Source: Stropharia rugosoannulata
Taxonomy: Eukaryota; Basidiomycota; Agaricomycetes; Agaricales; Strophariaceae
Assembly (NCBI GenBank): GCA_028532985.1
Contig: JANCIK010000006.1
Span: forward strand, 620,001-684,000
DNA: 64,000 nucleotides
Direction of reading: 5' to 3'
The translations under genes were made by a program, and so were the position numbers. The stretch's first letter is position 1; each line of letters starts with the position of its first letter. The notes under the pieces were generated by a model. That model was not told the origin of the DNA. It was given only the letters and a program-made list of their open reading frames with translations, and ran no database searches. Below, in pieces: positions 2,660-17,400 of the stretch.

Positions 2660-4775
2660 ATGTCGACAGACACAGTGGTACCAGCCGATGTCAAGAATAG
2701 TAGCAGGAGCAGCAGTTTTAACAACCACGATGGAACATTCAACGGAACGGACAACAGTATTGGCAACAGTAACGGCAAACCGAGCGACACCCACCCGAAC
2801 AGTGCGAACAGACTCGGCTCGCGCACGTTATCGGCGAGGTCACTGAAGGAGGCGCTTTCGAAGTTGGCCACAGGACCTCTGCACGTCACGAATCCCGTTG
2901 CTGCACTTCAGGCAAATGTTGAGTGAGTGTATGCTCTTCTGCGTGCACGTGCCGAGCGCACTGTGCACCGATGCACAGGGGGTTTGCATCATTTGTGATT
3001 GTTTTTCCTCATGCTAACTATTCGCCTTTCTCCTTCTCCCATCCTTCCCTTTATTACGTCCTATCGCCGTCCTTCCCAATCCATGACCGTGACCCATGCT
3101 CACATCGGGCCGCACAACTATCCAGTTTCGTGCCCGCGCATATACCCCGCAAACGGCGTCTGCAGATGCTCGCGGTGGCGATCTGGTCGGTGATGATCGT
3201 GACCACTTCTTGCGCGTGGTTGATTCTTTGGTACGTGCTCTTCCTCATGTGGGACACGCGCGTGCGATTCATCGTCGGTGGTTTATGCAGGTCTATTCCG
3301 CCGCTGTGGCCGTTTCTGGTCGTATACTACATCTGGGCACGGTGGATAGACAAGGCACCAGAACGTGGAGGGCGGAGGCTTAAATGGTGGAGGTCGAGTT
3401 TGTTCTGGAAATATTTTGCGGATTATTATCCTGCTTCGTAAGTTGCGGAATATATGCGGAATATTCATATACTAACTGCTTGGTGATAGATTTTTGAAGG
3501 TATTTTGGCCCAACAGGCTACGATGAGATGATGGCTCACAATGTTGGAAATCACTAGGAAGCAGATCTGCCCCCGGATAGGCCTTATGTCTTTGGATACC
3601 ACCCACACGGTACGGCTTTTACATCGCATATATGTGATCTCTTACTGAATGTTGTATTGACAACAGGTATTATCGGCATGTACGAATCATCATTGATAGG
3701 ACTCTGCTTGAAATTCACGTTCTTTTCATAGGGGAGCCCTCGCGACTTTTGCCACAGAAGGTATTTGCATTTATCCGTACAGTTCAAAGTGCATATATTC
3801 ACATTTTTTTACGATACAGCTACCGGGTTCTCCAAGGCTTTCCCAGGCATCAGGCCTCACCTGCTAACGCTAACGACAAACTTCCAGATGCCATTCTACC
3901 GCGATATCTTGCTTGCGCTGGGCGTGTGCAGTGTAAGCAAGAAGTCGTGCTCAAACATTCTGAAGGCGGGACCTGGCTCTGCTATTACTATTGTTGTGGG
4001 CGGTGCCGCGGAGAGTTTGAGCGCTAGACCTGGAACAGCGGATTTGACACTGAGAAAGAGGTACATACATCTTTTTTAAAACAAGTCTCTTGATGACTTG
4101 CTAACTGACCATCTTCCAGACTCGGGTTCATCAAACTTGCAATCCAGCATGGGTACTGCAAAGTTGTTTTACGCTGCCTGACGAGATGACTGACATCAAT
4201 TGATAGTGCAGATCTCGTGCCTGTCTTTTCTTTCGGTGAAAATGATGTGAGTGCGAGATACTTGTTGTTACCAAGTACCACAGAAACTGAGGGGAATTGT
4301 AGATCTACGAGCAAATGCCAAATGAAAAAGGAACTACCATATATGCGTTACAGAGAAAATTCCAGTCGTTATTCGGCTTTACTCTCCCCCTTTTTCATGG
4401 ACGAGGGCTGTTGAATTGTAAGTTCGATGTATGGACAGTGTTTCTCTCACTAACATCGTCTAGATAACCTCGGTCTTATGCCATACCGAAGGCAAATTGT
4501 CGCAGTTAGTCAGTCACCTCCCTCTTGATCTCGATGCGCAACTTGAACTGACTCGTTCTCGTAGTTGGCAAACCTATACATGTACGACAGTCCGATAAAC
4601 CGAGTCTGGAAGACGTCATGGAAATACAAAAGAAGTACATCGAAGAACTCACACGGTGCGCTTCGTTTAATATTCGCTGTTTTACAATTCTGACCCGGCG
4701 CATTCAAGTATCTGGAATACGTACAAGGATGTGTTTGCGAAAGCGAGATTGCGCGAGCTGAACATTATAGACTAA
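2660..4775 (+). CDS. DGA1: Diacylglycerol O-acyltransferase, DGAT2 family
   Basis: Transfers an acyl chain from acyl-CoA to diacylglycerol at the ER/lipid-droplet surface, the last step of triacylglycerol synthesis. I join 14 exons: 2660-2922, 3126-3230, 3291-3437, 3490-3499, 3558-3609, 3667-3679, 3732-3760, 3820-4060, 4120-4152, 4207-4246, 4303-4417, 4464-4508, 4565-4655, 4709-4775. They total 1251 nt (416 residues) in frame. A Ser/Asn-rich head of ~85 residues precedes the family core: a hydrophobic hairpin (LQMLAVAIWSVMIV ... WPFLVVYYIWARW), the HPHG active-site motif near residue 190 (FGYHPHG), the GGAAESL segment and the late motif FGENDIYEQ. The start is the ATG at 2660. An internal 60-nt stretch (3231-3290) is open but has a perfect donor and acceptor and no family counterpart, so it is treated as an intron. 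The gene converges on the NRPS-like gene, 321 bp away. Confidence 0.95.
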
Positions 4776-5096
4776 ATTAAGGATAAATCTGTTTTTGTTT
4801 GACATTAAAAACCTTTGGTTATAATTATTAACGTATCAACCAACTAGAGCTATACTCACTCTCAGGAAATGGTGGATCCTTCGATTCAATCGCTAGTGCG
4901 TTCTAAAAGCATAAACATTCTGATCTACTAGGTATGTGTGTGTGTGTGTGTGTGGTCTACTTCTACAGTGGAATAGTCTACATGATATAACATGGGCGCA
5001 ATCTACGACGGTTTGGTGATACAGATGTGCCGGAGTCGTTTCCGTCCTGAAAAGCATAAGAGGAAGAAAAGAAAAGAAATTGAAATTGAAAGGCCA
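4776..5096. other. Spacer between convergent genes
   Basis: Shared 3' flank of DGAT2 (plus) and the NRPS-like gene (minus). Apart from a dinucleotide microsatellite I see nothing in it. Confidence 0.6.
4935..4954. repeat. (TG)10 microsatellite
   Basis: An uninterrupted TG dinucleotide run lies in the spacer between the two convergent genes. Confidence 0.95.
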
Positions 5097-5317
5097 TTAG
5101 GTTGGGATCCAGCTCGGCGGGCTGCCAGGGCCGAAGGACAGTTGAACCTTTTTGAGCTCGTTCGGGGACGTGGCCTCATAGCAGACAGGACACCATTTCC
5201 GGCTGGAGAGCGAATGGGAGATGCATCTGTATTAATGGTGAGTAATTAATCCATACTCATCAAAGGATGGTTACTTACGTGTTGCAGAAGAGGTGCCCGC
5301 ATTTGGTGATGATGGTG
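5097..5317 (-). other. C3HC4 RING finger encoded at the 3' end of the NRPS-like gene
   Basis: Reading the minus strand across an intron at 5227-5278 gives C-x2-C-x12-C-x-H-x2-C-x2-C-x10-C-x2-C: CPLC, then KCGHLFC, then (after the intron) C-I-S-H..., then CPVC. All eight zinc ligands are present with canonical RING spacing. The first five are encoded in the exon that also encodes the end of the beta-helix region, with no stop or splice site required between them. RING fingers usually recruit E2 enzymes; activity here is inferred only. Confidence 0.85.
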
Positions 5318-8300
5318 CCGTCCTGGGGGACGCGCGAGCAGAGTGGGCAGGTGACGGTGGTGATCACTGTCTCCATGCTGCTCGTGTCTGAGCCGGCCTT
5401 GGAGTTGGAGAGCGCCTTGGCGGGCCAGCCGACGTAGACGGTGTCGCTGTCGGCGACGTCGCCCGAGGTGAGCAGCGTGTGCTCGCACAGCATGCTCGCG
5501 TCCTCCATCGACGCTCCTGAAAGCAACCGCGAGCCCGAGCGCATCGCGCAGCTGTAGTGCGTCGTGTCAGATTTTTTTGTGATGCGGATATTGGGAAGGG
5601 CCTCACTCGTTACCAATCTTGAGGCAGTTAAGGGAAAAGTTGCCGCGCGAGTTGAGATGCGAGACGACGGAGCAGTCGTCCAGGTTGACGTTATCCCCGA
5701 GCTGGTTGTTGTCAGTATATGTAAGTAGGTACGTGTGCATGAGAAAGCGCGGCATTAACGCACCTCGACGAGGTCAGGCTCAGTCATCAGCCCCACCTTG
5801 CCGCCCGCCCACACGGCGCAGTTCTTCCCGATATTCGCCCCGAGTGCACGGAAGTACCAGACAATATACGCCGAGCCCGTGAGCGGGCCCAACACCCCAG
5901 ACCCGCCAAAGCCCAGCGACGCAACGCGCGCAAGCGTCAAATGGAGCTGCCACCGCTGGCAATAGCTGTTCTGGTCCCAATCGTACCGCCCCGCCTTCCT
6001 CCGCCCGATAATAACCCACTTCGCTACGATTACCCAGGTTAGTGCGAGGAGCCCCTGAAAGGCGAGGACGCCGATGAAGCATGCGTAGACGAGCAGCCAG
6101 AGCGCGGGCAGCCGCGCCCAGGCAAAGTCGACGAAGCGAATGTGGTGCGGTTTGATGTGGATGTGCCGCAGGACTTGCGCTGCGACGACGCCGCCGACGG
6201 ACCAGTATACTGCGTTGGTACATGCGACCAGGAAGCTGAGCAGGGCGATTATGGGGTAGGGAAGGACGAAGAAGCTCGCTTGGCGCCTGTAGAACGCGCG
6301 TCCGAAGGGGGTAATGGTGTCCGTGTCCGCGTCGACGCCTTCCTTTGTGCCGGGGTTGAAGCACACCGCCTCGCCATTCTCTACATACAACTCGTCCGTC
6401 AGCCCAAAATACAAAGAAGAACAAAGCCGCGCGCACCATTCCCAATCCAAGTCGACCCATCCGCATACGTCGCCCCGCGCTTGCCTAGAGCCCCGGACCC
6501 CATAACAGCGCGCAGGCCGACGCGCGTGTTCGGCAGGAGCACGACGCGGTCCGCAATCATGGCGCCCTTGCCCACGACGATCTTGCCCGCGCCGATACGG
6601 TCCGAAGTGATGAGCGACGAGCGGGACCCAAACACGACGTCGTCGCCGATCTCGAGGAGCTCTGGGTCGGGGCAGTTCACGCCCGTGCCTGGCCAGTACA
6701 CCCTCCGCCCGATCTTGGCGCCCATCAGGCGGTACACGATCTATGACACTCATGGTTAGCTCTGTGAAGAGGAGGGGGGGAAGAGGGAGGGGGACGCACG
6801 GAAACGTTCTCATAGTGCGTGCCGAGGATGGAGAACGCCTGCTTGAGTGCGTGCTGCGAGAGCAGGACGCCATTAATATACTTGCGGAGGAGGACGAGCT
6901 CTCTACGGCCCGCAACGGGTCCCTCGGTGTTGAGCCCGAGCAGGCGCTTGACGGCGATACCGAGGACGAGCTGAATGAGTGGGCGGCCGACATCGCGCGC
7001 GAGCCGCGCAAGCGCATGGAAGAGCACACGGTCGAGGGAGCCGAACCAGACGATGACGGACTCGAGGCTGTTAAGCCCTGCGCGCGAGATCGTGGTGTCG
7101 TTCACCATGGCGTAGATCGAGATGACCCAAGGGATGTCTGTCAGTTACCAAACTCTATCAGCTTCTTCCTGCCACGCACAGACTCAATGAGGACTTACGA
7201 GCGACAGCAATGACAGCGACGATGAGCGGCCACGCGATGAGCGCACGAAGAATAATATTTGGCTGGCGCCTGAGTGTCCTATTATAAGCAGCATACGACT
7301 TGGGCGCAGGGTCATCGAACGAAGATGCATGCGGTCCATACACAGCACCATCCTCCACCCTCGTCCCGGGCGCGATGAAAGTATATGTGTTCACAAACGC
7401 CCTAGCACCAATCGTCACGGGGGCGAGCACGAACTGGCCGTGGCGCTCGACGGCAAAGGCGCGGAGGGTCGCGGTGTCGATCCGGCACCCGTCTTGGAGC
7501 GTGAGCAGGTCGGGCTCGAAGAGCCGCGTCTTCTCGTCGATGTACACGTCCTTGCCAATGCGCGCACCTAGGAGGCGGTAGTACAGGATCACGAACGATG
7601 GGTGGAGGTTGAACACGCCCCGGCCGGCCATGCTTCATGAACAGGAACTATCAGCGCACGGAAATAAAGGGAGAAGGGCGACGACGTACCGCAGACTCTG
7701 GTTGACGATCCACCAGCGGAGGTAGTACCCGCCCCACATCTTGTACACGCCCGGTCTGTGTCGACCAATAACAGCCCACTTGAAAGCGATAGCAAGGAGC
7801 GGGGACAGCGTACGCGTCGCAAAACGACTAATCACGATCGCGCGGATCAGCGCCCACATCTTGCCCCAGAAACTATGCGACAGGAACCCAGAGAATATCG
7901 AGAGCATGTATATGAGGATCGTCCACGCCACCGTCATTTTGAAAGAGTAGAAGAACAAAAACGGGATGGCCTGGATGAGCAGCACCGCAGGGCGCGTTTG
8001 TGCCTTTACACCGTGGCGCACGCCAAACTCCATGTCCTCGTCGTAGTCGTAATAGTCGTCCGAGAGACACGTCGCAGAGCTGGTGCGCGTCCCGAGCTCG
8101 GGGCGTTTCTCCACCTTTATCCCACCTGCGTCCTTCTCATCCTTGCCTGCGCTGACAAGCGCCGCGATGGCGCTGACCGTGCTCTGGGCGAACAGCTCCG
8201 TCACACCGACGCTCACCCCCGCCTGCTTGCGCAGCGCGTACGCCAGTTTACCGAGCAGGAGGGAGGTACCGCCGAGGAGGAAAAAGTCCGAGTGCGCGTG

Positions 8301-10639
8301 TACACTCGCGGGCTGTAGCCCGAGCAGGTCAGCGACGACGTCCCTTACCAGGCGCTCCGAGGGCGTCATGTCCGCCTCCGCGCTGCCCAGCGCGACGCGC
8401 TCCATCGCGTCATAGTCGAACTCGTCCTCCGGGCCAGGGCTGCGCACCAAAGGCCCGTCGACGGTGAACACATGGTCCGGGAGCTCGTACCCGTGCAGCG
8501 CGCGCGATAGGCGCGTGAGTATCGAGTCCGCGCGGACAGGCGATTTCGGCGCGAGCGCGACGTACGCCGCCGTCGACCCGTCCGCCAACGCACGGACTGT
8601 AGCGTCGTCGACTTCCGGCATGCGCCTCAGCTCTTCCGCTATAGCACCGACGTTGACGGAGACAGGCGAGCACGGGATGGGCTCGGACAGGGCGTGCGCG
8701 TTGGGTGGGAGTGCGGGGGCCTCGAAGTGGCGGCTGAGGTGCGGGTGCGAGTCGCTGACCTGGCCGAGACCGAGCCGCTTGGCGAGCGCGATGCGCAGGG
8801 GCTTGCCAGCCGAGTTCTTGGGCACGTCGCGCATGTACACGAGCGCAAAGGGCCACTTGGACGGGTGCAGGTGGCCGCGCAGGCGGTCGTGCAGCTGTGC
8901 GAGGCTCAGGCGCGGTGCGCTATCGTGTGCGACGACGGCGAGCCCGATCGTCTCTTGCAGCACGTCGTGGTCGATCGAGAACGCGAGCACGGTCTGCAAG
9001 CGGTCAGCACCGAGATATTTCTCATGAAAAAAGCCGCACCTTGAAGCAGTCCTTGGCCGCAATAGCAACAGCCTCCTCGACCTCGAATGGCGAGATGACC
9101 TCGCCTCCCTTGTTGATAATCTCCTTCGAGCGGCCGGTGATATACAGGTACCTGCGGGGCAATTAGGACAAGCGACGGCGATGAGCAAGGATGACTTACC
9201 CGTCGTCGTCCATGTATCCCATGTCGCCCGAGTCGAACCAGCCGTCGGAGGAAAAGACAGAGGTGTCGAGGGGCACGGCGGGGTCGGGGTCGAGCTCGTA
9301 GCCGGCAAAGGCGGGGAGGCCGCGGACGCAGACGGCGCCGGTCTTTCCCGGGCCGAAATCCCGATCGAGGTTGGACGGGTCGCGGATGGAGAGCTCGGGG
9401 CCGCAGGCGATGCCGGAGCACCCAGGGCGGTCGAGGGCGTAGTCTGTCGGGGGCGTAGCGATGGGCATGCACCTAGGATGACGTCAGCAGCGCGCGCAGA
9501 GACGGGAAGGACGACGTACTCGGTCATGCCGTAGGACGGGAGGATGACTGCGTCAAAGGCGTCCTTGAGGCTGTTTGCGAGGGACGGGAGGAGGCCACCG
9601 GCGGCGTTTGCGATGAAGCGGACGGCAAGGTCGCGGGATGGGATGAGGCCGTCCGGCTGGGTTGACAGGACGGCGTGGTGAACTGTGGGCGCAGCGTAAT
9701 ACCTATTATGGGGCATGGGTTACCATAAGCGGCTAGTGGATGTTCGCACGCACCAAGTACACCTGAGATCCTGGGCGAGGGACCAGAACACAACGGGGTC
9801 GAAGCCAAGGCACATGACGGCGCTGCCACCTGAGAGGACGGGTGCGAGGAGGTTGCGGACGATCCCGCCGACGTGGAAGAGCGGCATCATGTTGACTAGG
9901 AGAAGAAAAAGGTCAGCAGGTGGGTGCCGGGCGGCGAGTAGTACGCACGATTGATGTCGTCCGCGCGGAGCCCCCAGGAATGGACGACGCACCAGGTGCC
10001 GACGAGGAGGGTGCGGAGGGGGTAGCGCACGACCTTTTTCTTGCCGCTCGTGCCGGAGGTGTGGAGGATCAGGGCGGTATCATCCAGGCGCTGGAGCTGC
10101 GGGGAGCCGGCGGAGGGCGCATCCTCCGTCGTGCTGAGATCAAAAAGACCAGCAGGTCCACCGGGACGCGGGGTGAGGATGACGAGGGCACAGTCGATGG
10201 CGGCGACGGCGGGTGCGAGGGCGAGGCGGTCTGCGATGTCGCGGGTGGTGACGAGGGCGCGGATGCGCAGGCGTGCGGCGTCCTCCATGATTTCTGCCGT
10301 GGTGCAGCTTGCGTTGACGGGTGCGCAGGAGTGGTATGCAGCCAGGGCGAGGAGTGCGACGGCGCTCTCGGGGCCTGCTGGGAGGACGGGCATGACGCGG
10401 TCGTTGGGGCGCAGGGACAGGCCCGGGAGACGGAAGTTGTTCACAAAGGCACGCAGGGCGGCGTGGGTGAGGGCAGGGCGCGCAGGGTCCGGGGCGAAGA
10501 CTGCAGGGGCAGGGGAGTCGGGCAGACAGTCGAGCAGGGTGCGGATGGGCGACTGCTGGAGGCGCTGGGCAAAGACCGCACCGAGGGAGACATCCTTTGG
10601 GACGGGGTCAGCGTTGAGAAAGGCAAGTGGCTGGACCAT
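5097..10639 (-). CDS. NRPS-like synthetase: adenylation, carrier, hexapeptide/membrane region, C-terminal RING
   Basis: Thirteen exons on the minus strand: 9949-10639, 9754-9895, 9520-9702, 9200-9472, 9040-9151, 7690-8993, 7199-7632, 6800-7137, 6437-6740, 5764-6380, 5607-5701, 5279-5551, 5097-5226. Total 4896 nt, ~1631 residues, frame kept at every join. Residues ~1-540 form an ANL adenylation domain (TSGTSGKKK near 196, YGMTE, GDMGYMDDDG, TGRSKEIINKGGE, catalytic Lys in PKNSAGKPL near 531). A carrier domain follows (DFFLLGGTSLL, Ser ~711). Then come several hydrophobic segments alternating with left-handed beta-helix hexapeptide repeats (for example IGDDVVFGSRSSL, IGARAFVNTYTF), the layout of Pls/PosA-type NRPS enzymes. 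After the end of the helix region (VYVGWPAKAL) the same exon runs into CPLC; the last exon supplies the rest of a C3HC4 RING (1567-1605) and the stop. Substrate unknown: amino or acyl acid activation is inferred. Confidence 0.88.
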
Positions 10640-11017: not shown

Positions 11018-12536
11018 TTACTGCCCGACCACCGCTACCTCACCCCGACGCCCGCCCACAACAACCCGCCACGCCGCCTCCCCGGGGTCACACTTCTTCA
11101 GCGCACCATAGTCGTACCACACCAGCGCCTCCTTTGCGTGCGCAACAAACGCGCCCTGCCGCACAGACCACGCCCGCCCCACCACCTCGAACGTCGTCCT
11201 GTCATCTCCGTTTCCGCCGTGATGCTGGTGTGCTTCGTCAGGCGTGTCGTAAGAACCTCTCCCTTCGCACTGGCTAGTACCGTTGCCGTAACCCATCTCT
11301 TGGCATTCGCCTTTGCGCATCGGCGCAGATAACTCTGACGGCACAGATAATACTGACGAAGTTGATAATACCGACCGTGACGGCAGCACGGGCTTGTATC
11401 CGATAACCAGCTACACAAAAAAGTGAGCAAGCTTATTCCCCGACATTTAGTGAGAAGATCGAACAACAAATCAAATAAAAAAGAGTGGCCGTCGATGTGA
11501 GAACGCGTGAACCCATAAACCCGTATCAATCACTCTCGAAGGACCGCCGAGTGCGAACCCGTCTCGTTCTCTCATCTCTACACGAAGCAGTGGGAGTGTG
11601 AACCCGTCCGCCTCAACAAGTACGCGTGTGTGAACCCATCTATCGAGGAACACTCCGAGAAGAAAGAAAAAGCGGGAGAAGAACAAACACAAACCGACGC
11701 CGAAAAAAACAAACACACCGACCCGGACACCGATACCGTTACGGCTACGGATGCAGAATCAATCACATACGGATGCACAAATCACAGATAAGGGGGACAA
11801 ACCCAAATCCTGACAAACGCAGAACCGAAACACCAAACACGTCCACGGCAAATCAACGCCACAAATAACATATCCGTATAACCCCGTTTTCCAAAAACTC
11901 CAAGGTTAACAAAATGAAAAAACGAAAACAGCAAAAAAAAAGCGCGCAATACCACACCAGACGCACGAAAAGACACCAGAGAGCACGGAAACCGAAAGCA
12001 GCACTCGAGAAAGTAATAAAACGAAAACGAAAAACGAACGAACGACGACTCACAGTATCAGGGTACGTTACAGGGCGACGGAAGCGTACCTCGATCGACT
12101 TGAGTATGAGCGATACGCCTTGCCCGCGTATCATCGCTTCTGCGCGCTCCCGCCCACCGAGCTCGGTCCCCAACGATTCGAGCCACTTGATTCGGGCCTG
12201 TACACCGCGCCGCGCCACGCCGCGCATAGCGGAATCAGTATCCATGCACAAAACCATTAGTTTAGTAAGTAAGTAGTAGTAGCGTTCATTGATGCACCAC
12301 CACCACCACCACCAAGCGCAAGTTGCACAATGCAAGGCGCAATCAGGTTAGCATAACATGCCGTTAGTATGCAGGCGATCAAAAAAAAAAAGATAACAGG
12401 CAATCAAATGCAAGACGCGATCAGTACGTGTGTCATGTAGCGCAAAGTAAAGTGGATTACTCACCGACTCGAAGAACCGGACTAGGAGTGAGTGAGTCAG
12501 AAGAAGCAGCGACAAAAACAGAGGTGAGGGAGTGGG

Positions 12537-12568
<32 letters not shown>

Positions 12569-14460
12569 AAAGAGGAAGAGGGGGGAATGGAAGGCGCGTG
12601 CGAGTAGTAGAGTAGTAAGCACCGATGCGGATTCGGATTAGGTGGTATGGTATGTCGAGTAAGCACAGAGTAAGCACGTATCCGTTGTTCGAGAAAGCAC
12701 CCCATTCGAGTTTCGAGATTGGTTGTTCGAGTGATCGCGTAGTATTCGATTTCCGAGGTAATCAATCACATATCCGTTTTGCGAGGTAATCACAGATCAG
12801 TTTTTTTTTTCGAGTACGGTTAATTTTTTATAAATATCAAGGTTTGGTATCTTCGAGTAAGCACGGATTTTGTTCGGGATGATGAGGGGTGTACGTACCG
12901 TACCGGACATTGTTAACATGTCTGTAGCGGCGGAGGAGATCAAAGGAAGGCGGTGGGTGGGTGGGTGGTTGGTCGGTTGGTCGGTTAGGTAGGTAGTCAG
13001 ATAGGTAGGTAGGTGGTTAGTCAGTTAAGTGGACTCTTGAACGGATGCGCAGAGAATAGGAGAGAGGAGAAGAGAAGAGAGAATTGGCTCGTGTGCCCTT
13101 GAACGCGACGAAAGAGTGCATAGGCAAGAGAACAAAATAAAAATAAAGCACGCGCCGAGATAACGAGAGACGCTGCTTGAATGTCAAAACATCCAAGTCC
13201 GTCCGAAGGAGAAGAGGACAACGCCAAAGATAAAGCCAACGCCAGAGATAAAGCCAACGTTGAAGATAAAGCCAACGTCGAAGATAGAGCCAACCCCAAA
13301 GATAGAGATAAAGATAAAGATAAAGATAAAGATAAAGAAAAGACGAAAGACGAAAGACGAAAGGTGAAAGAAAGAAAGAAAGAAAAGACGCACTGGAATG
13401 AATCTTGATCGCCCCAGACGATGCGCTGTTCCCAGAACGATGCGGGGTCCAGTCCAGCTTTTATCAGCGCCGCGCGCGCTGCTGCTAGCGCGTCTGCCTC
13501 TGCGTCGCCTTTCGCGCTTGCGCCTGCGCGCGCCATCGCTGCAGACCGCGACCAAGTTGAAGTTTGGGAACGCGCCCGCGCCCCTGGTTCTGCCCTCGCC
13601 TGAGCGAGAGCCTCCGAGGGTGATGCTGGTGCTGATGCCGATAGCGAAGCAGTCGCAAACGCAGATACAGAGCGCATACCTAGTACTACGCCCGGGGGTT
13701 GTTCCGCACGCTCGGGCGGCGGGGTTATGTCATTGTCACTGCTGCTATCATTCCCGGTCGTCTGTATCTGGTCCTGATCCTGCGCCTGAGTGCGAGGCTT
13801 ATCCTGAGCGTGAGCGTGAAGCTTATCCCGAGTCTGAGGCTTATCCTGAGTGTGAGGCTTATCCTGACGCTGCATCTGCGCCGGGCTTACGTGTGCGTGG
13901 GCGTGTGCTATCTTATCCGTGGGCGTTACGTTGACGGGAGTGTCGTCCGCCTGGACATGCGAGTCCGAGTCCGGGTGGGCGATTACGGCTGCGCCCTGGT
14001 TCGCGCGCGTGCTCGCGTTGGTCGTAGATGCACCCACCTGGTTTGGGTTTGGGTTTGGGTTTTGATTCGCGTTCGCGTTGGCAGTCAGCGGGCGCGTGGG
14101 TACGGGTACGGGTATGGGTATGGGTATGTCCGTGTTTACTTCTATGGTACCATCGCGCCGGGCATGAGCATGAGTGTGCGTAGCACCACCACCCACCGGC
14201 GGAGAATCAGGCGAGTCCGGGCCCTGCGTCCCCGGGGGTAGATGAAATGGCGACGACGGGTCCTTGAACGCGGCTTGCAGCTCCTACATAGCGGGCGCAG
14301 TCACAGTGAGTAAGTGTTAGTCTACCTCGGCACGCTGCATGTTTCGGGTCGCGCGCGCGCGCCCTTAATACGCACGCACCTTGATCGACGAGGTGATCGT
14401 CCTCCGGTGGTGTGCTGCGACGCGGGCGAGACTGGCCAGGCGAGGGCTGAGCGCTAGCAT
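11018..14460 (-). CDS. Hotdog-fold acyl-CoA thioesterase (4HBT_2-like), probably mitochondrial
   Basis: Six minus-strand exons: 14380-14460, 13394-14283, 12899-12921, 12465-12481, 12054-12197, 11018-11410; total 1548 nt, 515 residues, all joins in frame. Residues 1-27 are Arg/Ser/Ala-rich with no acid, like a mitochondrial presequence. A ~190-residue low-complexity stretch (NPNPNPN, DKPxTQ repeats, His/Ala) follows. The fold starts at FWEQRIVWGDQDSFQ-HVNN (near 312-328), continues through VRFFES, ARIKWLESLG and SIEVRFRRPVTYPDT, and ends with ALVWYDYGALKKCDPGE, the pattern of fungal thioesterase-superfamily proteins. The two exons of 23 and 17 nt encode exactly the conserved HVNNVRYVRFFES block, which supports the model. 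Introns are 96, 472, 417, 267 and 643 nt, far longer than elsewhere here. The final C-terminus could involve one more small exon. Substrate unknown. Confidence 0.8.
12295..12314. repeat. (CAC)n run in a thioesterase intron
   Basis: An uninterrupted CAC trinucleotide run sits in the 267-nt intron of the thioesterase gene. Confidence 0.9.
12537..12567. repeat. (AAC)n run in a thioesterase intron
   Basis: About ten copies of the AAC trinucleotide lie in the 417-nt intron. Confidence 0.9.
12953..13025. repeat. GGTN tetranucleotide repeat region
   Basis: Imperfect GGTG, GGTT, GGTC and GGTA tetranucleotides run through the 472-nt intron of the thioesterase gene. Confidence 0.85.
13217..13340. repeat. 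18-bp minisatellite followed by (GATAAA)n
   Basis: Five tandem copies of an 18-bp unit (consensus GCCAACGYCGAAGATAAA) run from 13217 to about 13306 and grade into a GATAAA hexanucleotide array. The whole array is inside the 472-nt intron of the thioesterase gene. Confidence 0.9.
13797..13868. repeat. 18-bp tandem repeat in the thioesterase coding exon
   Basis: Four imperfect copies of an 18-bp unit encode the DKP-x-T-Q repeats of the low-complexity region on the minus strand. The period matches that of the intronic minisatellite 500 bp away, although the unit sequence differs. Confidence 0.8.
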
Positions 14461-17400
14461 CGGGCGTGTTTCGTACGTTATATTGTTGTTGTAGATGGGT
14501 GTCCTATGGGCAGAGACGAACCAGGCGAACCAGGGCGAGCCAGAGTGAAGGAGGACAAGACAAGATCAGAGCCCCGCGAGGATGCAAGACACGTCGCTGG
14601 AGGAAATAGCAGATAGGCACACAGCAGGAGACGGGCAGCGGCGGGGACGGCGGCAGGCTGCCAGCGAGCGGGCTGAGGACGACGTGGGCGGAGCGGAGCG
14701 GGGCAGGGAGTTCGCCTTGCACGTTCGTCGCGGCCGCACGAGACTCGACGCGGACATGGACCGTGCGCACCTCTCACCGTGCATCACCGGCTGTCCGGAT
14801 CGGTCGGCTACCAGACACAAACCGACGACGACGACAACGACGAGCAGCTTGTCCGTTCTCCATGGCCCATTGTCCAGCTGAGATCACTATCCCGACCGCG
14901 CTGCACGCTGCGCCACGCGCTGATGCCCCACACAGGGCGCACGCTGCACAGCACAGCACAGGCGCTAAGTAATTGGCGAGCGCAGGTCTAGCCGACCCTT
15001 AGCGTACTTGTTCTCCTGTTTGCGCGGGGCGCGCGCAGGCAGGTGCAGACGCAGTATTACTCACTGCTTTGATACTCGTACCAATAACATAACAAACCAC
15101 CGGGGCGACACAACATCCTGCCTACGCAGCAAGTGCTCGCAATGTACATCCCCGCGATGCCTGCATTGGCGCCCCATCCATCGGCGCCAGCACCAATCTG
15201 CTGTGTTGTTCAGTCCAAATGGCGTCCCTCGCCCTCGACGGGCAAATGCGCCTGATTCCGTACACATCTGTATTCGCATTAACCATGAACGCTCTATGGG
15301 CGCTCAGCACCATGCAGTAGTAGAGTCTCCGTGACTCTTTCGCCGACGCGCAGGCGAACTGCAGGGTCTCGTAAAACACGGTAATGCGTTGTAAAGTAAC
15401 ATAATCCTTCTTCATTCATATCCTACTTACCAAACCTACATTGCTCATTTCGCACCGTTCCCAGTTCGTCTCTGTCGCGTGGGTGCTCGACTGATGCTAT
15501 ATGACTCGCATGTGCAGCACAGCGCGCTTTGTTCTTCACATATTCACATCGAACAATGAACCTAACCTGGCACCGCCCCGCCTCGACCCAATCCCCATCT
15601 CAATCTCACCATGATATGTATGATTGCAGTCATACGAACTCGCGAAAAAAAAAAAAAAAATAGGTTAAAAATAGCCTTCCATCCCAGCATCTCCAAAAAT
15701 AACCTTCCATTTTATTTCCGTCGCAGGAATCGTGCAGCGTGGGGCTGTACACCACCTGGCGCTTGGAGATATACATACATATGATAGCTATGTATGTACG
15801 TAGCTATCTGTGAAGGGCTGAATTGTATCACTGATCTGTCACTGTCAGCTTTAGGCTCTTGTCAAAGGTAACGGACACGCTGCACATCATGGAGAGTGTA
15901 TCATATCACGGAGAGAGGATGATGGTGTTCCGACCACATCATGGCGGCCCATGAGCTTCGCCTTTGAGGAAAGTGTGCTGCGATTGTAATCAGAGTGATT
16001 TACGATCAAATTTAGAAGTGCATGGCTCAGTTTAACGTCTCTGCCCAGCGTCGTTCACGGACTCCCACTCTCATATTACACTAGTAGCGCATCAGCCAGT
16101 GGTGCACTTCGAAATTGAATGATCTGCCGCCTGACTCATTGGCAACAGTCACGATAGGTCTCAACAGCACACCACACCGAACTTGTGGATTGAAAACAAT
16201 AAATCAAATCGTCGTGTTGTGTTTCCCTCCCTTGCCAGTGTTCACACCTCATCGTTACAAGAACGAGTTTCAGCTGAAATGAACATGTCACGTCCCGCGC
16301 CCGCCCGTACTAGTGAGCTAGCAAGCCAGGCTAGAGCATATGCTCTCCTGTCTCGCACCTGTGGCACCTGAAAGGCGCTATTTGTTCTGAGCAACATCAT
16401 CCATGTGCACCCCCACCTGGAGCGGCGGATCGTCGCTGGGTCTCTAGGGTCTGGCCGTCACCAACGGTCGAGCTTCACGGGTCTGCCAAAAGCGATACCT
16501 TGACTACTCTTCTCCTCACCATACTGTCTCGATGCATGTTTGAATTCAACTCTTGTCAAGTTGAGCCAGGTTCATTTCCCGGAATAAAATAAAAATTTCA
16601 GACACATCGACAGATGGACAGAGCACAACAGGGTAAAAGAGTTACAACGCTAAGTAGTACGCGCGTCTCGGACTCGGAAGTGGCCGACGAGCACAACATA
16701 CTCTACATACATACATGCATATGCGCTCGTCCGGCGCTGTGAAGGGTAGTACTAAATACAATTGCTGTGTAGTTTTAGACTTGGGTGGGAACAGATGCAT
16801 CTTCAAGCCTGTCACCTATAATTATCTCGCGGCGCCTCGAGGAATTTCCAAGAATAACATACGAGCTTAATATAACACAGACCCATGCAATCACTCGTAT
16901 GGACGTCGGACGTATGAGGAAATCAAGTCTCGAGAGCCTTACCCAATTCTCCTTTCGGCGTCGTGAAAGGCCCTTGCTTCCAAACGAAATTTTGCGGGCG
17001 TCGATACGATCTTTACCGCGGTTCGCTCGCCACAAAGCAGAGAGCACACCGCGCGCAGACGTATACGCAGCCGGCTATGCGCCTTCTTCTTCTTCTTCCT
17101 AATGGATTAGAAATTTAAGATGCGGTATACTTGGCACAATCCCTCGCTGATAAAGTTTAGGCTGTTTAACTAATAGATAGTTTAGTAGTTGGAGGTGGAG
17201 CGCCTCTCGAGGTGCCTATTACACTTAGTGCGCTCCATTAATCATGTCCAAAGCGTATTAGCCTGGGATCTCAGACGTGCATGGAGCGGGAAAAAATGAT
17301 TCATGCAGAGAGTCAGATTCAGACTGATTGATGAAAAGAATTGTCCTCTGGACTCCGGGTCGAGAACTTGCGATCACACAAGCTGCTACAGACGACACTC

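Follow-up and report, generated by a model that had tools for sequence, protein, structure and literature searches.

Synthetases of the Pls/PosA type (TIGR02353, the epsilon-poly-lysine synthetase type) are built from an adenylation (A) domain, a carrier (T), and three repeats of membrane segments followed by a beta-helix. Oxalate-CoA ligases, which are stand-alone enzymes of about 510-540 residues, have an A domain but no carrier, no membrane part, and no RING. Among the RING proteins, RNF4 and BRE1 are active ligases, and BMI-1 is the partner without catalytic activity in a RING pair. In many RINGs, an Arg or Lys after the last zinc ligand activates E2~Ub, although this is not universal. Here we describe a gene of the fungus Stropharia rugosoannulata in which a synthetase of this general build is followed, in the same spliced frame, by a RING.

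Gene model and surroundings

The window, the whole stretch of 64,000 nucleotides that was analysed, sits on a 3.7-Mb contig of a 48-Mb assembly with 20 contigs. Splicing of the window sequence yielded 13 exons on the minus strand, running from 10639 to 5097 and separated by 12 GT-AG introns of 46-62 nt. The spliced synthetase-RING frame has 1,628 residues; it begins at ATG 10639, the earliest ATG of its open frame, and its stop codon, the earliest in frame, ends at 5097. The earlier note had reported 13 joins in frame, of which the frame is kept but the number is 12, and retention of any single one of the 12 introns leads to a premature stop. The domain search that it had proposed for the spliced protein matched AMP-binding (residues 57-394), PP-binding (679-744), Hexapep, and RING families (Pfam). 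The simple order of adenylation domain, carrier, and beta-helix given there proved incomplete, as the protein comprises an A domain, a degenerate second A-subdomain, the carrier, three repeats of membrane region plus beta-helix, and a C-terminal C3HC4 RING. The features are listed below with their window positions:

Exon 1, 9949..10639, minus strand: start codon and N-terminal A domain, including TSGTSGKKK; Pfam AMP-binding at residues 57-394
Exon 2, 9763..9895, minus strand: A4 region MPLFHVGGI, acyl-CoA-ligase type, FDxS Asp absent
Exon 3, 9520..9702, minus strand: A domain, to YGMTE
Exon 4, 9200..9472, minus strand: A domain, CMPIA and GWFDSGD
Exon 5, 9040..9151, minus strand: A domain, GRSKEIINKGGE
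Exon 6, 7690..8993, minus strand: C-subdomain of the A domain (lysine of PKNSAGKPLR), degenerate A-subdomain, carrier, and first hydrophobic pair (801-835)
Ser708 in LGGTSL, 8262..8264, minus strand: predicted 4'-phosphopantetheine site, from the PP-binding match and alignment
Exon 7, 7199..7632, minus strand: beta-helix 1, then hydrophobic segment 1025-1043
Exon 8, 6800..7137, minus strand: remainder of the repeat 2 membrane region, with its linker; the fungal protein shows no separate hydropathy peak here
Exon 9, 6437..6740, minus strand: beta-helix 2, Hexapep at 1210-1240
Exon 10, 5764..6380, minus strand: hydrophobic segments 1294-1312 and 1353-1371 of repeat 3; beta-helix 3 begins
Exon 11, 5607..5701, minus strand: beta-helix 3, HLNSRG with His1478
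Exon 12, 5279..5551, minus strand: end of beta-helix 3, 20-residue linker, and first half of the RING
Intron 12, 5227..5278, minus strand: 52 nt, GTAAGT...ACAG
Exon 13, 5097..5226, minus strand: second half of the RING (C1587, C1598, C1601), 27-residue tail, and stop

The central claim of the earlier note, that synthetase and RING share one frame, is borne out by exon 12, which carries both with no stop between them: GWPAKAL (residues 1536-1542) lies at 5430-5410 and the codon of the first RING ligand at 5349-5347. Its finer details also agree with the spliced sequence. The 52-nt intron (5278-5227) lies between RING ligands 5 (C1584) and 6 (C1587), where it splits codon 1586, and the stop is the 28th codon past the last ligand, with 27 residues following C1601 before it. 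With intron 12 retained, residue 1586 would be the last of the protein and the RING would be truncated. Judged from the gene structure, there is a strong case that the fusion is present as one reading frame in the S. rugosoannulata genome.

The two identified left neighbours, an AAA ATPase at 1-2228 (PF00004, 2.9e-28) and a diacylglycerol acyltransferase at about 2660-4770 (PF03982), were each scanned by one or two exons, and their names and extents are our own interpretation. Both are on the plus strand, so no minus-strand neighbour is seen to own the RING exons. The acyltransferase gene is arranged tail-to-tail with the synthetase. To us the AAA ATPase reads like Cdc48/p97, and the closeness of such a gene to a RING-bearing synthetase is probably a coincidence. 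Upstream of the synthetase, at 11800-14500, there is a stretch that appears repeat-rich by eye.

The synthetase core and its bacterial relatives

Among solved structures, the A domain is closest to oxalate-CoA ligases (PDB 5ie0, E 9.1e-47; 6qjz, E 1.2e-46). The ANL motifs are present (P-loop HTSGTSGKKK at 193 and the catalytic-lysine motif PKNSAGKPLR at 522), as is the carrier serine motif LGGTSL (PF00550, E 1.2e-12). The degenerate second A-subdomain lies between A domain and carrier (residues about 577-675, window 8361-8657), and tyrocidine synthase 2 ends in an A-subdomain plus carrier that aligns with residues 577-744. FDxS is the A4 motif of amino-acid-type A domains. The fungal MPLFHVGGI lacks its Asp, whereas two canonical Pls/PosA proteins, L109 and L110, have AFDVSVEE and GFDGSVEE, respectively. 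From this region and the PDB matches, the carboxylic acid that the A domain would activate is probably not an alpha-amino acid.

The protein had been placed among the relatives of poly-lysine synthase. Its single module and A-T-beta-helix order fit that placement; functional kinship does not follow, and a poly-lysine-synthase-type identity was rejected because the acyl-type A domain most resembles oxalate-CoA ligases, the amino-acid-binding FDxS Asp is missing, and the family score is below cut-off. TIGR02353 matches the fungal protein in three stretches with 181.3 bits versus an equivalog cut-off of 423.1 (NCBIfam), and the two bacterial relatives scanned against it also remain below (182.6 and 166.1 bits). 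L109 and L110 reach 747.7 and 576.8 bits, and their amino-acid adenylation domains score 405.2 and 403.2 bits. Weak TIGR02353 matches occurred in 13 of 14 control genomes, so a sub-cut-off match alone is unspecific. Within its own genome the synthetase is single-copy: 10 of the 16 protein matches are its own exons and the other 6 are weak A- or carrier-domain matches, and all three TIGR02353 matches fall in the synthetase-RING gene.

Bacterial and archaeal genomes, one for each species, were scanned with a 563-residue query reaching from the middle of the A domain to the carrier. The scan, which relied on six exact eight-residue patterns and thus missed many relatives, returned 42 loci. Four cover nearly the whole query at 38-41% identity, and the remaining 38 are partial matches (24-36% identity). 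The four near-full relatives (L035-L038) are from Novosphingobium percolationis, N. sp. KCTC 2891, N. olei, and one Myxococcales MAG. They are 34.1, 34.2, 34.3, and 36.3% identical to the fungal protein over 1,488, 1,488, 1,491, and 1,462 residues, and the alignment runs end to end through A domain, degenerate A-subdomain, carrier, and the three membrane/beta-helix repeats. The A part is best conserved (203-209 of 467-475 residues identical) and has the same MPLFHxGGI motif; the carrier (about 34%) and the helix repeats (about 28-38%) follow, and the degenerate A-subdomain is weakly aligned (15-21 of 84-92 residues). Together, the fungal gene and the four bacterial relatives appear to form a subfamily of their own, marked by an A domain of acyl type.

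The bacterial proteins differ from the fungal one at their C-termini, which lie 17, 17, 22, and 10 residues past GWPG, the counterpart of fungal GWPA (1536-1539). The first fungal RING ligand is 24 residues past GWPA and so beyond all four ends. None of the four has a RING, and with the two canonical Pls/PosA proteins included, the RING is absent from 6/6 aligned bacterial relatives. Since these relatives end before the RING position, the RING is an appended module. In a MAFFT alignment the terminal residues of L037 fell across from the end of the fungal protein, an end-gap artefact that we disregarded.

Rarity was assessed with a model of the membrane/beta-helix half made from the fungal and four bacterial sequences (threshold 1e-30), applied to genomes drawn evenly from the larger groups with at most two candidates scored per genome. 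Matches came from 2 of 385 genomes in the Novosphingobium class and from 3 of 377 in the phylum of the Myxococcales MAG. One match in each set was a genome already known, and the other three matches were partial; two of them were fetched, which are L109 and L110, and G736 was left out. No plasmid record matched the myxobacterial relative at E 1e-60, and among viral contigs 21 stretches fit the helix-part pattern, none of which was confirmed.

The Novosphingobium relatives have similar gene neighbourhoods. In L036, a 4'-phosphopantetheinyl transferase (PF01648, 1.3e-13) starts 20 bases past the synthetase and is followed by a ferritin-like gene and, further along, a TonB receptor barrel. The transferase adjoins the synthetase downstream in three of the four relatives (all three Novosphingobium; L035 and L037 by tblastn), so the carrier is probably loaded. 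L035 and L037 share with L036 the transferase, the ferritin-like gene, a large upstream gene, and a response regulator. The large upstream gene is TonB-like by eye and has no Pfam match at 0.001, and the downstream TonB receptor of L036 recurs only in L035. None of five neighbour genes was found at L038, where the contig ends about 950 bases downstream. The region 318-13496 of L036 (also L035, partly L037) is a possible iron-linked metabolite cluster; the Novosphingobium neighbours hint at an iron-related metabolite and say nothing direct about the fungus.

In the hydropathy profile the hydrophobic segments form three clusters, and a beta-helix stretch comes after each cluster. For the C-terminal half, five peaks were counted in the fungal protein, as against seven apiece in the two bacterial relatives checked. 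As numbers of membrane segments these counts are approximate, because the peaks partly overlap and also appear inside the soluble A domain; the cytosolic placement of the RING, which depends on the segment count, is likewise tentative. The membrane pairs of repeats 1 and 3 are each followed by a positively charged KW..IGR stretch, and repeat 2 has KRLLGLN. Under the positive-inside rule of membrane proteins, these stretches would put the helices and the RING in the cytosol, which suggests that all soluble parts, RING included, face the cytosol. Beta-helix 3 (about 1419-1541) matches the hexapeptide transferase 3ixc (E 4.5e-8); at a threshold of 0.01, no other PDB entry matched the C-terminal part. 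The HLNxRG motif of this helix, with fungal His1478, is kept in 5/5 subfamily members, and a His aligned to His1478 is also found in 2/2 canonical Pls/PosA proteins. Folding of the bacterial C-terminal half from four sequences was uninformative (mean pLDDT 32).

The C-terminal RING

The eight zinc ligands are C1563, C1566, C1579, H1581, C1584, C1587, C1598, and C1601, with the spacing that had been read from the DNA (x2, x12, x1, x2, x2, x10, x2). They follow the C3HC4 order at distances within the allowed range, and the hydrophobic positions of CPLC and CPVC are retained. Eight RING-type Pfam families match, two of them above their cut-offs: PF13923 at 1563-1601 (E 8.2e-8, 32.4 bits versus 27) and PF00097 (E 1.2e-7, 31.9 bits versus 21). 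The sub-cut-off families are PF13639 (26.3 versus 27.3), PF14634 (26 versus 27.9), PF13920, PF14835, PF14447, and PF12678. In 14 prokaryote control genomes, PF13639 had no match and PF13923 had one, none over cut-off. The RING profile match is far above chance.

The PDB matches of the RING include RNF4 (2e-14 for a two-RING construct, 6.8e-8 for the single RING), a RING2/BMI-1 chimera (2.6e-10), and the BRE1 RING chain (1.3e-7). The BRE1 alignment pairs query residues 5-60 with residues 8-63 of 64 without net gaps and thus reaches within one residue of the chain end, and the tail of the fungal RING, NELKKVQLSF, is BRE1-like. RNF4 has an Arg after its last ligand, whereas the fungal RING has Tyr1602 there and no basic linchpin residue, so its E3 activity may be weak or absent. 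Given the ligands and these matches, E3 activity of the RING is plausible.

GC3 is 0.81 in the RING codons and 0.80-0.85 in the enzyme parts; within exon 12 it is 0.94 in the final turns of the helix and 0.89 in the linker. We looked for a RING donor in the same genome by a protein search and with two RING families (25 matches each), and translated all 25 matches of one family, 2 of 25 of the other, and the six non-self loci of the protein search. The best other RING by E-value, L011, reached E 6e-4 with 33% identity over 57 residues in a protein search that ran exon by exon, so that spliced RINGs can escape it. We read L011 as an RNF220-like C-terminal RING and the next ones as RNF10-like and PEX12-like. 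No clear donor was found among the translated matches, and no BRE1 was recognised among the translated RING matches, where introns can hide one.

Possible roles of the fused RING

The reading that we favour, at a probability of roughly 0.4, is that the product is a membrane-anchored acyl synthetase that depends on a carrier and bears an added C-terminal RING acting as an E3 in cis. The A domain would adenylate a carboxylic acid, likely not an alpha-amino acid, and load it onto Ser708, and the beta-helix units would hand the acyl group to an acceptor, most likely via His1478 of the third helix. The RING, 20 residues past that helix on the predicted cytosolic side, would recruit an E2 and ubiquitylate the synthetase or a partner, so that the level or quality of the enzyme would be controlled in cis; self-ubiquitylation would be the simplest use. 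As the RING is absent from the bacterial relatives, its role is more likely regulatory or structural than chemical. If intron 12 were retained, the product would be an enzyme whose RING is broken, which could serve as a switch. The fuller proposal, in which a built-in, membrane-anchored ubiquitin ligase acts in cis to tune how much synthetase is present and is switched by retention of intron 12, is less likely than not.

The fusion may also be real and the RING not an E3. It is a tentative but realistic possibility that the domain is a zinc-bound dimerisation or docking module that pairs synthetases or tethers them to a partner, which would agree with the Tyr in place of the RNF4 Arg, with BMI-1 among the matches, and with the BRE1-like tail, which would suit a dimerising RING. 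The eight intact ligands, the preserved CPLC/CPVC hydrophobic positions, and the presence of RNF4 and BRE1 among the best matches speak for an E3 instead. A lineage-specific C-terminal capture without a selected role, tolerated at the end of the enzyme, seems improbable: one copy in one genome, 6/6 aligned bacterial relatives lacking a RING, and no close RING elsewhere in the genome in the exon-by-exon search are what it would predict, but the intact ligands, the intron within the RING, and the gene-like GC3 argue against a recent neutral read-through.

Still less credible is that the gene model is at fault, with the synthetase ending near 5400 and a separate RING gene or transcript starting from M1554. 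There is one in-frame ATG between helix and RING (M1554, at 5376), but a single exon holds the helix end and the RING with no stop between them, and both left neighbours are on the plus strand. AATAAA, ATTAAA, and AATAAT are absent from the minus strand in 5001-5551, also past the real stop, which is not decisive. That ubiquitin or a ubiquitin-like protein serves as the acyl acceptor, brought to the synthetase by the RING, is far-fetched: the physical fusion alone points to it, the bacterial cores have no RING, so the core reaction seems independent of one, and no precedent is known to us for ubiquitin as the acceptor of a carrier-made acyl group.

An active RING, as in the favoured cis-E3 reading, would mean that an enzyme from secondary or lipid-like metabolism bears its own ubiquitin-writing module; to our knowledge, ubiquitin control of metabolic enzymes is known only in trans. 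If control in cis is true, degradation control would have been fused onto an enzyme type that is otherwise seen here only in RING-less bacteria, whose ends mark a clean boundary at which the added RING is amenable to truncation. The gene also points to a little-known subfamily that joins an A domain of acyl-CoA-ligase type to a membrane/beta-helix body of Pls type. Its members here come from one fungus, three Novosphingobium, and one myxobacterial genome, and its product could be sought in the bacteria. The fungal protein has the A-T-(membrane + beta-helix)x3 architecture of the Pls/PosA synthetases, of which the canonical L109 and L110 are 24.0 and 23.1% identical to it and, like its closer bacterial relatives, end shortly past the last helix. 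BRE1 and RNF4 are among the nearest solved RINGs, yet they are different proteins.
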